From Dehalobacter restrictus DSM 9455 (GTDB lineage: Bacteria > Bacillota > Desulfitobacteriia > Desulfitobacteriales > Syntrophobotulaceae): 64,000 nucleotides of DNA. Shown piece by piece: positions 4,761 to 33,645 of the stretch. A program made the translations under genes and the position numbers. The stretch's first letter is position 1. Each line of letters starts with the position of its first letter. The notes under the pieces were generated by a model. That model was not told the origin of the DNA and searched no databases. It saw only the letters and a list, made by a program, of their open reading frames with translations. The stretch lies in the NCBI RefSeq assembly GCF_000512895.1, contig NZ_CP007033.1, positions 2,467,001 through 2,531,000 of the forward strand, given 5' to 3'.

Positions 4761-5954
4761 TTAAGACAGACGGTTTTTAAAATCCTCATAGCCGAAGCTA
4801 CGGACAGTCTCAATGGTACCGTCAGCCTTGTTCAGGACAATATCCGGCAGCCGTATCCCATTGAATGTATTGTTTTTGACCATGGAGTAAATCGCCATAT
4901 CACAGAAGACAAGACGGTCTCCGGGATTTAAGGCCCGATCAAATGAATAATCCCCAATGATATCACCGGCCAGGCAGGTTGGCCCCCCAAGACGGTACGT
5001 AGTTTTCTTTTCTCCGGGCTGCCCTGAGCCAACTATCCGGGGACGGTACGGAACTTCCAGTACATCCGGCATATGGCAGGCAGCTGAAGCATCCAGGATA
5101 GCAATGTTCATACCGTTATGCAGCGTATCCAGCACGGATGAGACCAAAAAACCGGCATTCAGCGCGACCGCTTCGCCAGGTTCCAGGTACACGGTAATGC
5201 CATAGGTTTCCCGCAGACGCTTGATGGTCCGAATCAGAAGCTCCCGATCGTAATCTTCACGTGTAATGTGGTGCCCCCCACCAAGATTCAGCCATTTCAT
5301 CCCAGGCAAGAACTGACCGAACGACTTCTCAAAGGCTTCAACCGTTGTCACCAGCGCATCGGCATTTTGTTCGCACAGTGTATGCAGATGCAGTCCGGAA
5401 AGGCCTTTGAGCCGATCCTGCTTAAAGTTTGCCCTGGTCACACCGAGTCTGGAATAGGGTCCGCAGGGATCATACATGCCATGACCTTCCTGGGTGGAAC
5501 ATTCCGGGTTGATCCGCAGGCCGCATTCTGCCCCTGCGGCAAGCGCTCGCTTACCAAACTTATCCCACTGAGAAAAGCTATTGAATATGATATGATCGGA
5601 TACAGTCAAGATTTCATCAAATTCATCCTCCCGGTAAGCCGGGCTGAAAATATGCACTTCTTTGCCAAATTCTTCACGGCCAAGCTTCGCCTCGTACAAG
5701 CCGCTGGCTGTTGTTCCGCATAAATATTGAGCAATCAAAGGGTATACCCGGAACATTGAAAACGCCTTCTGGGCGAGCAGAATTTTTGCTCCGCTCTGTT
5801 CCTGAACGTCTTGTAAAATCTTTAAATTTGATATTAACAGATTCTCATCAACCACATAGCTCGGAGTCGGAACACGGTCAAACCAGTTCTCCGCATTTTC
5901 TGCTTCTACAGCCTTCTGCTCCTCAATATTCTGTTTTCTTGTGTATGGATCCAT
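4761..5954 (-). CDS. nspC: Carboxynorspermidine decarboxylase
   Basis: A PLP-dependent alanine-racemase-fold decarboxylase that makes norspermidine or spermidine from the carboxylated precursor. The motifs TPSYVVDENLL (N-terminal barrel entry), LLAQKAFSMF (PLP lysine), LNLGGGHHITREDYD and LEPGEAVALNAGFLV mark the family. I chose the ATG at 5954 because GGGAG lies eight bases upstream (397 residues). An upstream ATG at 5969 overlaps the TGA of the preceding synthase gene as TGATG. Translational coupling with the synthase gene is therefore likely, and the two enzymes act in sequence. Confidence 0.92.
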   Translation of the reverse strand: MDPYTRKQNIEEQKAVEAENAENWFDRVPTPSYVVDENLLISNLKILQDVQEQSGAKILLAQKAFSMFRVYPLIAQYLCGTTASGLYEAKLGREEFGKEVHIFSPAYREDEFDEILTVSDHIIFNSFSQWDKFGKRALAAGAECGLRINPECSTQEGHGMYDPCGPYSRLGVTRANFKQDRLKGLSGLHLHTLCEQNADALVTTVEAFEKSFGQFLPGMKWLNLGGGHHITREDYDRELLIRTIKRLRETYGITVYLEPGEAVALNAGFLVSSVLDTLHNGMNIAILDASAACHMPDVLEVPYRPRIVGSGQPGEKKTTYRLGGPTCLAGDIIGDYSFDRALNPGDRLVFCDMAIYSMVKNNTFNGIRLPDIVLNKADGTIETVRSFGYEDFKNRLS

Positions 5955-5968
5955 TATTGCGTCTCCCA

Positions 5969-7168
5969 TCAGGGTACCAGCACCGGATTGAAGTCCTCTT
6001 CCCAGGGCAGACCCCACTTATTGAGTGCTTCCATAAAAGGATCGGGATCAAACTCTTCCATATTATAAACACCAGGTTTCGCCCAGGTACCATTCATAAC
6101 CAACATCGCCCCGATCATCGCCGGCACGCCGGTGGTATAGCTGATGGCTTGGCTTCCTACTTCTCGATAGCACTCCTCATGATCGCAGATGTTATACAGA
6201 TAGTAGGTTTTTTCCTTGCCGTCTTTAATTCCCTTGAAAATGCAGCCAATATTGGTTTTGCCCTTGGTACGCGGACCAAGGGAAGCCGGATCCGGCAGGA
6301 CAGCTTTTAAGAACTGCAAAGGGATGATTTCCATTCCATTATAATTAATAGGCTCAATGCTCGTCATACCAACGTTCTCGAGACATTTCAGATGTGTCAG
6401 GTAGCTTTGTCCGAAAGTCATAAAGAAACGGATGCGTTTGATGCCTTTAATATTCAGCGCCAGACTTTCCAATTCCTCGTGGTGCAGCAGGTACATATCC
6501 TTGACGCCGACACCCTTGAAATTGTACTCCCTTTTGATTTCCATCGGCTCGGTTTCCACCCAGTGGCCGTTTTCCCAGTAGCTTCCTTTGGCCGTGACTT
6601 CGCGGATATTAATCTCAGGGTTAAAGTTCGTCGCAAACGGATAACCGTGGTCACCGCCATTGCAGTCCAAAATATCAATTTCATGTATCTCATCAAAGTG
6701 GTGCTTTAATGCGTAGGCACTGAATACACTGGTGACCCCCGGGTCAAAACCTGAACCGAGCAGTGCGGTAATTCTGGCTTCTTTAAATTTCTCCCGGTAT
6801 TCCCACTGCCACTTGTATTCAAAATGAGCAGTATCTTCAGGCTCATAATTGGCGGTATCAACATAACTGGTCTTGGTGGCCAGACAGGCATCCATAATAT
6901 GCAGGTCCTGATACGGCAAAGCCAGATTCAGTACAACGTCAGGCTTCTCTTTGTTGATTAGTGCGATCAGTTCTTCCACGTTGTCAGCATCTACCTGGGC
7001 CGTTGTAATTTTGGTTTTACCTCCGCCCAGTTTTTCCGCTAAAGCATCACATTTCGATTTCGTACGGCTGGCAATACACAATTCTCCGAATACCTCTGAA
7101 TTCTGACAGATCTTGTGAATTGCCACACCGGCGACGCCGCCGCAGCCGATAACGAGTACTTTTCCCAT
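5969..7168 (-). CDS. Carboxynorspermidine synthase (saccharopine dehydrogenase-like)
   Basis: Condenses a diamine with aspartate semialdehyde and reduces the product to carboxy(nor)spermidine. It has 399 residues. The N-terminal Rossmann fold GKVLVIGCGGVAGVAIHK is followed by ASRTKSKCDAL, a VLNLALPYQDLHIMDACL segment and GSGFDPGVTSVFSAYA, typical of the Lys9/carboxynorspermidine synthase family. The ATG at 7168 is preceded by GGAGGAAAATGTT; the longer open frame up to 7279 has no ribosome site. It has its own promoter at 7240-7268, just downstream of the terminator of the upstream RNA. Confidence 0.92.
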   Translation of the reverse strand: MGKVLVIGCGGVAGVAIHKICQNSEVFGELCIASRTKSKCDALAEKLGGGKTKITTAQVDADNVEELIALINKEKPDVVLNLALPYQDLHIMDACLATKTSYVDTANYEPEDTAHFEYKWQWEYREKFKEARITALLGSGFDPGVTSVFSAYALKHHFDEIHEIDILDCNGGDHGYPFATNFNPEINIREVTAKGSYWENGHWVETEPMEIKREYNFKGVGVKDMYLLHHEELESLALNIKGIKRIRFFMTFGQSYLTHLKCLENVGMTSIEPINYNGMEIIPLQFLKAVLPDPASLGPRTKGKTNIGCIFKGIKDGKEKTYYLYNICDHEECYREVGSQAISYTTGVPAMIGAMLVMNGTWAKPGVYNMEEFDPDPFMEALNKWGLPWEEDFNPVLVP

Positions 7169-7239
7169 AACATTTTCCTCCAATCGCTGAAATAATTTTT
7201 GCTGTAAGTTCCTGACTTTCATCCCTCTACTGATCATGA

Positions 7240-7268
7240 AACATAAAACTTCGCAGACATTTTGACAA
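7240..7268 (-). promoter_or_regulatory. Promoter of the carboxynorspermidine operon
   Basis: On the minus strand TTGTCA (7268-7263) and TATGTT (7245-7240) with a 17-base spacer, placed directly after the T-run of the upstream RNA terminator. This argues that the upstream RNA and this operon are separate transcription units. Confidence 0.55.
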
Positions 7269-7270
7269 AT

Positions 7271-7676
7271 AAAAAACACTTAAGGAGGCGGTACTGCAAA
7301 ACAGGGCAGTACACCACACCTAAGCGCGACGATCATGAAAAACTTGTTTATTTGGCTCTATTTACGTCAAGGGCGAAGGCCCTTTCCATTTAGAGTTATT
7401 TATTCAGCTTTCGAGGTTTCAGAGTCTATATAGCAAGGAATTACTTTTACTACTCTTATTGATCGTTTCACAAGTGTGATGTGCAGCGGATTTGCACACG
7501 GCTATGAATTAGCCAACTCATAACGTTTCGAGCCGCCCCGGCTCAATCAATAAGGCAACAAAGTTGCCAACTTCGGCTTTTGACCCGGCTGTCCGTATGG
7601 CCTTGGTCCTCTATAGCTTCTACAGAGAACGGTCAAAAAATTCTTTGCTGAAAAGGCTCTACTGCCTCTTTTCGCA
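7271..7676 (-). ncRNA. Candidate structured noncoding RNA of about 400 nt, family not recognised
   Basis: This 400-base spacer has no credible reading frame but carries a perfect-looking promoter (7683-7711) and ends in a 19-bp hairpin (7279-7297 with 7306-7324) plus TTTTTT. From the 5' end it can fold as a GAAAAG(A)GGC/GCCUUUUC hairpin, then a UUUUGACC/GGGUCAAAA helix enclosing an 11-bp stem and a small GGC/GCC stem. Next comes a CUUAUUGAU/AUCAAUAAG helix enclosing a GAGCCG/CGGCUC hairpin and two further stems, then an AAAGGG-CUUCG-type hairpin before the terminator. I do not find RNase P, tmRNA, SRP, 6S, T-box, glmS, lysine, SAM, cobalamin or intron signatures. An independent trans-acting RNA is my reading. 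Confidence 0.7.
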
Positions 7677-7682
7677 ACTGAA

Positions 7683-7711
7683 ATTATATCTAATATTTCG
7701 AGATATTTCAA
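7683..7711 (-). promoter_or_regulatory. Consensus promoter of the orphan RNA
   Basis: On the minus strand TTGAAA (7711-7706), a 17-base spacer and a perfect TATAAT (7688-7683). Transcription should begin near 7676. It is among the best promoters in the window. Confidence 0.7.
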
Positions 7712-7776
7712 TAGTTTTTATAAATTAGTTTTAATAAGCTTCATTTTCATTTTTTTCATTGTTTTCTTTTAAGATC

Positions 7777-8898
7777 TTACTTTTGAATTTCACGTACTTC
7801 TCTCATAGCGGTAAAACCTTTGGATTGTAAAGCTGATCGGATCGCACCGCCGCCCAGGACATGATCTCCGTCATAAAACACGACCGCCTGCCCGGGAGTT
7901 ACCGCTCGCTGTTTTTCTGTGAAGGCCACCTCGGCTGTTCCATCGTGCAACAAATTGACCGCTGCAGAGACTTTTGGTGCATTGTATCTGATCTTAACCG
8001 ATATGTTTTGTAGGAGTTCAGGAGACACAGAGGAAATCAAATGCACATTTTCTGCAAGCAGACCTGAGCTGAATAGTTCTTCTTTTCTTCCGACCCGGAC
8101 TGTATTGGTTTCAGCATCGATCGCTGTCACGTAAACAGGGAAACCGAGGGCGAGTCCGAGTCCCTTATGCTGTCCAACCGTATAGTGGTAAATCCCTTTA
8201 TGCTGCCCAATCAAATTCCCCTCAGCATCAATAATATTGCCTTGTCCAATATCCTGAAGTTGACGGTACATCTCAATAAAATCCCCCGCTGTCCCTTCAA
8301 CAAAACAGATATCCTGGCTTTCCGCTTTTTGCGCGACAGCAAGCCCTTCCCTGCTGGCAATTTGCCTGACATCCGCTTTGCAGTATTTTCCCAGCGGAAA
8401 AAGTGTATAGGTAAGCTGATCCTGGGTCAGATGGTAGAGTGCATAGCTCTGGTCTTTCGTTTCGTCGATCCCGGTTTTTAACACCCACTGCTGTGTTTTG
8501 TCGTCGTATTCTTTCCTTACATAGTGACCGGTTGCAATGAAATCTGCACCCAGACCACGGGCTTTCTGCAGCAAAGCATCAAATTTCAAATGCCTGTTGC
8601 ATTCGATGCATGGGTTGGGCGTTCTGCCCCGGAGGTATTCATTGCAGAAATGGTCAATCACCTTGTCTTCAAACTCCTGCCTGAAATTCATCACGTAATA
8701 CGGAATTTCAAGCTTCCAGGCTACCCTGCGGGCATCGTTAACTGCCTCCAGACTGCAGCATGCCTTGGCCTTGTCCTCGGATTGCGGCCAGATCTGCATG
8801 GTAACACCGATAACACGGTAGCCCTCCCGTTTTAACAACAAAGCGGCGACGGAGCTGTCCACTCCGCCGCTCATGGCAACAACCACAGTTTTCTTCAT
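7777..8898 (-). CDS. mnmA: tRNA-specific 2-thiouridylase
   Basis: Thiolates U34 of Lys, Glu and Gln tRNAs, using sulfur relayed from a cysteine desulfurase. It has 373 residues. The PP-loop AMSGGVDSSVAALLL is at the N-terminus; the catalytic cysteine pair lies in TPNPCIECNRHLKFD near residue 100 and in ESQDICFVEG near residue 200. The C-terminal barrel ends in VFYDGDHVLGGGAI. The gene lies 55 bases downstream of metY and may be transcribed with the cysK-pdxS-metY operon. The usual adjacent iscS is missing here. Confidence 0.97.
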   Translation of the reverse strand: MKKTVVVAMSGGVDSSVAALLLKREGYRVIGVTMQIWPQSEDKAKACCSLEAVNDARRVAWKLEIPYYVMNFRQEFEDKVIDHFCNEYLRGRTPNPCIECNRHLKFDALLQKARGLGADFIATGHYVRKEYDDKTQQWVLKTGIDETKDQSYALYHLTQDQLTYTLFPLGKYCKADVRQIASREGLAVAQKAESQDICFVEGTAGDFIEMYRQLQDIGQGNIIDAEGNLIGQHKGIYHYTVGQHKGLGLALGFPVYVTAIDAETNTVRVGRKEELFSSGLLAENVHLISSVSPELLQNISVKIRYNAPKVSAAVNLLHDGTAEVAFTEKQRAVTPGQAVVFYDGDHVLGGGAIRSALQSKGFTAMREVREIQK

Positions 8899-33399: not shown

Positions 33400-33645
33400 G
33401 ACCTGTTAACCCTGTTCGTGACTTCTTTCCCAACTGCTTCGCAATCGGGCGTAGAAAAGCACGGACAACTGAAGGGATTCCGCAAAGAAAACCTTCTTCC
33501 TGTTTGATCCGCTCTTGTCCCGGAAATTGCTTTCCGGATTTGCAACGAATCTAACGATGACAAGCCACCGAGAGGCACCCGCCGAAAACTTCGATTAACC
33601 TCTTCCTCGTCAACCCAAAATGGGTTCTGGCGCTACATTTCTGTG
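33400..33645 (-). ncRNA. glmS ribozyme (glucosamine-6-phosphate-responsive)
   Basis: Minus-strand sequence has the conserved core in order: AGCGCCAGAACC with the self-cleavage site between A(33634) and G(33633), GUUGACGAGGA, AGAGGUUAAUCGAA, UUUCGGCGGGUGCCUCUCGG, then UCGUUAGAUUCGUUGC. The peripheral P3-P4 region runs to about 33400. Binding of glucosamine 6-phosphate triggers cleavage and loss of the downstream glmS message. It has its own promoter at 33659-33687. The 3' boundary is approximate. Three imperfect 10-base ACAAGxCAAG repeats (33371-33400) follow the core. Confidence 0.93.

Follow-up and report, generated by a model that had tools for sequence, protein, structure and literature searches.

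Riboswitches that sense polyamines have long been predicted. One class of bacterial spermidine riboswitch has been validated, consisting of rare SAM-I variants that lie upstream of polyamine genes including ldcC and act as OFF switches by termination, and its authors expected more classes to exist (Salvail et al. 2023, PMC10853860). Comparative analysis has also yielded candidate leaders of polyamine genes, among them the potE motif, restricted to Veillonella, and the odc1 motif of alpha-proteobacteria, which contains an upstream open reading frame (uORF) (Brewer et al. 2021, PMC8632094). A further relevant RNA is F59 of Streptococcus pneumoniae (srn235, Spd_sr49; TIGR4 869478–869804), detected between SP0915 and SP0916 on the SP0916 strand and listed as a putative small RNA (sRNA) (PMC3395615, PMC12323649). 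SP_0916 encodes arginine decarboxylase (PMC7531197). Deletion of potABCD in pneumococcus is reported to raise cad/SP_0916 expression 17-fold and speE expression 14.4-fold (PMC4887915), and deletion of speE to raise arginine decarboxylase (PMC7990898); the passages concerned offer no RNA mechanism for the derepression.

We analysed a locus in the window (the whole 64,000-nucleotide stretch of Dehalobacter restrictus DNA) and compared it with these systems. We consider it likely that the RNA encoded there is a cis-acting polyamine riboswitch, with spermidine the most probable ligand, which would sit in the leader of an operon for spermidine synthesis and turn it off by transcription termination. 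A fragment of this RNA is known to Rfam solely as a 54-nt sRNA of Streptococcus, and the larger RNA has not previously been catalogued there. In the open-access papers searched, we found no description of the larger RNA and no reference to SpF59 as a riboswitch.

Layout of the locus and its Rfam match

The whole element, like every feature of this locus described below, lies on the minus strand, and runs in the 5′ to 3′ direction from a promoter through a 5′ hairpin, a structured region, a stretch of about 90 nt where conservation is lower and a terminator to a dehydrogenase gene. The upstream gene, mnmA, ends at 7777. The promoter is the one read in the preliminary description, TTGAAA (7711–7706) and TATAAT (7688–7683) with a 17-nt spacer; it agrees with the consensus at 11 of 12 positions in a consensus scan and is kept in relatives L002–L007, congeners included. 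From its position, transcription is expected to start at about 7677–7674. The structured RNA occupies approximately 7673–7419 (about 250 nt), and its 7660–7419 segment has a folding energy of −85.3 kcal/mol (z = −5.5; 0 of 200 shuffles were as good). The hairpin and T-run already noticed at the 3′ side form an intrinsic terminator (7267–7327), in which a hairpin at 7327–7279 (−22.7 kcal/mol, z = −4.7) is followed by the U-run TGTTTTTTATTT (7278–7267).

The first gene encodes a carboxynorspermidine (saccharopine-type) dehydrogenase (5969–7168; PF03435/PF16653), with its start codon at 7168 and a GGAGG ribosome-binding site at 7181; it scores 418 bits against NF043000, under that model's cut-off of 800. 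The second, nspC, encodes carboxynorspermidine decarboxylase (4761–6017; TIGR01047, 494.9 bits, cut-off 409), and its true start probably lies further in than that of the listed reading frame, as the domain match begins at residue 49. The carboxynorspermidine route to spermidine uses no SAM. An independent promoter for this operon, which had been proposed, was rejected: the sole candidate, TTGTCA-17-TATGTT, matches the consensus at 9 of 12 positions, against a chance expectation of 1.5 promoter-like sites, merely about 45 nt separate the terminator from the start codon in relative L006, and no promoter is conserved downstream. In L005, repeat units (CACGGATGG, GGTGTAGGAGCGA and similar sequences) lie between the terminator and the dehydrogenase gene.

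The single Rfam match in this region is to RF02440 (SpF59_sRNA, 54 nt), which aligns over its full model (1–54) with 7635–7573 at 65.5 bits, far above the cut-off of 37.2, so that the RNA does belong to a known family although none had been recognized before. Other classes named earlier (raiA, ROOL, OLE, GOLLD, HEARO, RNase P, tmRNA, SRP and 6S) indeed gave no match, in the window at the gathering threshold or in positions 7000–8000 at E ≤ 10. The Rfam SAM clan likewise gave no match when both strands were searched to E = 10, nor did the lysine family match here. Elsewhere in the window, a glmS ribozyme/riboswitch (33496–33645, minus strand; 105.5 bits) is ordinary for Bacillota. RF02440 is filed as an sRNA gene and its model spans only one 5′ side domain, whereas the RNA here comprises about 220 nt plus an expression platform. 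The conserved structure runs about 150 nt further 3′ than a self-contained small RNA of the model's size would, and one more helix, the outer one, lies outside the model.

Fold and covariation of the conserved RNA

Among the matches listed, the RNA of about 220 nt is conserved in 138 relatives. A named structure with 44 pairs, arranged in eight helices, was tested on A1, a set of 50 diverse sequences, in which 92.8% of cells are paired. Changes on both sides were found for 18 pairs (139 such cells versus 42.8 in shuffles), none of 500 shuffles reached any of five measures, and the pairing fell by half when the partners were shifted by one column. A mutual-information scan independently ranked pairs of P2, P2a, P3 and P5 at the top; the strong conservation of P4 and P6 leaves little covariation in these two helices. 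The fold is shown by comparison across relatives. The earlier view of a large, conserved and poorly described structured RNA is upheld, except that part of it was already in Rfam as RF02440.

At the 5′ end, a hairpin recognized from its sequence, GAAAAGAGGC...GCCUUUUC (7650–7673), carries in its loop region a GAG(U)C-like motif that is able to pair with GACUCU at the 3′ end. Among the matches listed, GAGTC occurs upstream in 36 of 105 loci, and AGAG/CUCU is paired in the minimum-energy fold. The outer helix P1, identified by a duplex test and in the window's own minimum-energy fold, had been overlooked; its 5′ strand AGCAAAGAAUU (7639–7649) has its partner at 7442–7432, and the pairing is AGCAAaGAAUU (7649–7639) with AAUUCcUUGCU (7442–7432). 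Across loci, the 5′ and 3′ strands resemble GCAAAUAUU and AAUAUUUGC, respectively, and the mean duplex energy is −9.5 kcal/mol for native partners versus −7.0 kcal/mol for permuted ones (p about 1e-4), a difference that may partly reflect kinship because the permutation retains shared ancestry.

Within P1, the RF02440 match constitutes a 5′ side domain (7573–7635) that includes P2, the P2a hairpin and the near-invariant AAGGCCAUACGGACAGCCGG. P2 pairs UUUUGACC with GGGUCAAAA (7638–7631 with 7586–7578), and compensatory changes occur in P2/P2a; hairpin P3 (GGCAAC-UUU-GUUGCC, 7554–7568) has them in all six pairs. The P4 domain (7455–7554) is closed by CUUAUUGAU (7554–7546) and AUCAAUAAG (7463–7455), and holds P5 (7545–7541/7533–7529), P6 and P6a. 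Both long-range helices of the preliminary description, P2 and P4, are real, with 97% and 96% of cells paired, respectively, in the 50 sequences. The switching helix P6 (7468–7523), formed by UUAUGAGU (7523–7516) and ACUUGUGA (7475–7468), is 97.8% paired in the same set. The near-invariant 3′ core AGAGUAGUAAAAGUAAUUCCUUGCUAUAUAGACUCUGA (7419–7456), conserved in A1 and A2, contains the 3′ strand of P1 (7442–7432); in the 138 loci among the matches listed, conservation reaches far past the 54 nt of RF02440 and takes in a 3′ core AGAGUAGUAAAAGU...UUGCUAUAUAGACUCUG. A local AGAGU/ACUCU hairpin that RNAalifold places in the 3′ core was retained merely as a possible alternative, since it hardly varies and since covariation ties its 3′ strand to the 5′ strand of P1.

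Expression platform and proposed switching

The left arm of the terminator, GCGCUUAGGUGUGGUGUACUGC (7306–7327), is complementary to the aptamer segment GCACAUCACACUUGU, and the resulting antiterminator duplex has an energy of −17.5 kcal/mol in the window. To examine this across relatives, terminators were picked by T-run and stem energy, blind to complementarity with the core; terminator and core segment were both located in 116 loci among the matches listed. In the 109 unique loci among these matches, the left arm can pair with the segment that ends in ACUUGUGAAA, with a native mean of −13.4 kcal/mol. The same segment gives −11.5 kcal/mol with the arms of other loci (permutation p about 1e-4; shared ancestry is retained here too, and part of the difference may be kinship) and −6.4 kcal/mol with shuffled arms, and other core segments reach −4.5 to −8.3 kcal/mol against the left arm. 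Among the matches listed, the paired arm base is U in 7 loci and never C where the core reads ACUUGUA, and C in 59 and U in 9 where it reads ACUUGUG; at the remaining 40 loci the G/A position is unpaired in the best duplex.

The invariant ACUUGUG is at once the 3′ strand of P6 and the antiterminator strand, so that P6 cannot form together with the antiterminator. The antiterminator and terminator likewise exclude one another. Judged from sequence comparison, this layout of P6, antiterminator and terminator is the anatomy of a transcription-termination OFF switch. What had been described as an orphan RNA with its own transcription unit apart from the operon instead reads as a cis-acting leader with an antiterminator and terminator, followed by a polyamine gene. 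The preliminary description thus holds as to a large structured RNA, but not as to its orphan status, a separate promoter or the want of a family match.

In the mechanism that we propose, plentiful polyamine would lead to binding of the ligand, directly by the RNA, to the folded domain of about 220 nt, and binding would stabilize P6 inside P1. With P6 formed, the left arm would be free, the terminator (7327–7267) would form and transcription would stop, leaving an RNA of about 400 nt as the terminated product. Under polyamine scarcity, ACUUGUG together with the bases 5′ of it would pair with the left arm as antiterminator, and the carboxynorspermidine dehydrogenase gene and nspC would be transcribed. 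By analogy, the published derepression at the pneumococcal locus supports the OFF direction, although that derepression could alternatively run through a protein; the window RNA appears to be linked to pneumococcal F59 by their shared Rfam family and by where F59 is placed on the published map.

A leader of this kind might instead act by ribosome-mediated attenuation, with a leader peptide stalling on polyamine as for the proteobacterial odc1 motif; the enzymes are of a kind associated with uORFs elsewhere (PMC8632094). Among the matches listed, however, just 13 of 118 leaders have a reading frame of at least 7 codons with a Shine–Dalgarno-like site, and these are at scattered positions; the conserved GTG is followed by 76 different kinds of peptide, and base-level conservation crosses loops and paired strands irrespective of frame. 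The earlier remark that no reading frame intervenes fits the sequences, in which no conserved frame with a ribosome-binding site is found. With no conserved uORF discernible in the sequences of these 118 leaders, we rejected the leader-peptide attenuator, which we regard as scarcely credible beside direct ligand binding by the RNA.

Gene context, candidate ligand and known systems

RF02440 has matches in 7 of 101 close relatives and, in a phylum-wide sample of 398 genomes, in 17; a Lactococcus lactis genome used as control carries it as well. A contig scan with the conserved 21-mer GGCCATRCGGACAGCYGGGTC, which selects for conserved members, returned at least 118 stretches; among the matches listed are Paenibacillus, Neobacillus, Bacillus, Faecalibacterium, Blautia, Flavonifractor, Phascolarctobacterium, Acidaminococcus and many uncultured Clostridia. 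Two matches in metagenome bins, L068 (Spirochaetes) and L098 (Synergistaceae), may reflect contamination or mis-binning, or horizontal transfer. BLAST of the 63-nt segment against plasmids gave no match.

The first downstream gene is co-directional and polyamine-related in 123 of 127 assignable loci (simple reading-frame calling, among the matches listed), and comparison of loci in this way makes the association with polyamine genes a strict one. The first genes, among the matches listed, encode SpeD (42), an Orn/Lys/Arg decarboxylase (36), carboxynorspermidine dehydrogenase (31) or PotA (14); later genes of the operons encode SpeE (spermidine synthase), agmatinase/arginase family proteins, NspC, and ABC-transporter permease and solute-binding subunits. 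Across the phylum, the RNA precedes decarboxylase, SpeD, carboxynorspermidine and Pot-transporter genes. In one of the four exceptions, L084, PotA is second, and two of the other three look like out-of-frame reading frames over the same genes. In L084 the RNA is followed by a PII-like gene and then by PotA, a hint that this operon for polyamine uptake includes a nitrogen-signal protein.

The covariance model R1, restricted to the 3′ domain (127 positions, no overlap with RF02440), matches the window at 7553–7420 with 107 bits. It finds 23 of the 398 phylum genomes, namely all 17 RF02440-positive ones and six more. All six extra loci lie upstream of SpeD or decarboxylase genes and none has an RF02440 match; the RNA is present in about 6% of the 398 sampled genomes. 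Natural miniature forms of about 100 nt occur upstream of speD in L158 and L160. They are without the RF02440 domain and most of the P4–P5 region and retain P1 and the 3′ core, and on this ground the ligand site is likely to lie in the 3′ core. In L149 and L150 the 5′ domains have diverged to below the RF02440 cut-off, and L150 has an ACGGACA motif within a rearranged hairpin context. In L008, a c-di-GMP-I riboswitch (2514–2605) is found close to the polyamine leader.

These gene neighbourhoods bear on two further explanations. The RNA has its own promoter and terminator and is listed as a putative sRNA both in S. pneumoniae and in Rfam, as would be expected of a stand-alone, trans-acting sRNA whose terminator merely ends it and whose neighbouring gene is incidental. 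Such an sRNA would not need antiterminator complementarity, and the co-directional polyamine genes at 123 of 127 loci among the matches listed, together with the want of a conserved downstream promoter, make this account very improbable; the terminated RNA may have a role in trans in addition. Better supported is the alternative raised in the preliminary description, a regulatory RNA connected with polyamines. Sensing by the same terminator leader through a protein (for example, PyrR-like) or of another metabolite (for example, decarboxylated SAM/MTA) is unlikely, although the platform anatomy suits any effector that stabilizes P6 and SpeD is the commonest first gene (42 loci among the matches listed). 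Polyamines are the sole thing common to the regulated genes: the route encoded in the window is without SAM and PotA-type loci import only. Among the operons examined, no regulator gene is a recurrent neighbour of the RNA, and dozens of near-invariant unpaired bases resemble a small-molecule site.

A polyamine riboswitch, our preferred reading, combines a covarying aptamer-like domain, a mutually exclusive platform and genes tied to one metabolite (123 of 127 plus 6 of 6 loci). We infer that spermidine is the best single ligand, because all of the regulated genes have it in common as product or cargo and because the operon in the window makes it without SAM. The best explanation of these sequence data is a new polyamine riboswitch class which, by Rfam, is unrelated to the SAM-I-variant spermidine riboswitch. 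On balance, we favour the view that it is a second natural spermidine (polyamine) aptamer class, structurally unrelated to the SAM-I variant, among the larger riboswitch aptamers, with a modular 5′ domain lost in some members, and carried by gut commensals, by soil bacilli and probably by streptococci; it would then be a main means by which Bacillota hold polyamine synthesis and uptake under feedback control. If so, the 14–17-fold pneumococcal derepression on loss of polyamine uptake would have a testable cause, and a listed pneumococcal sRNA would be re-read as the terminated product of a switch.

The closest relative is pneumococcal RF02440, or 'ldcC RNA', whose full 54-nt model the window RNA matches; the pneumococcal RNA lies on the strand of SP0916, the arginine decarboxylase gene. 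The SAM-I-variant class is similar in its association with polyamine genes and its terminator platform, but the window RNA has a different fold and no Rfam SAM match at E up to 10. The potE and odc1 motifs are likewise candidate leaders found by comparative analysis, from which the window RNA is set apart by their text descriptions. Although the window RNA matches none of the SAM-I, lysine and adenosylcobalamin families of Rfam, its core is large for a riboswitch and its ligand is putative, it shares with those riboswitches a conserved aptamer-like domain, an outer helix that closes it and a mutually exclusive antiterminator and terminator.
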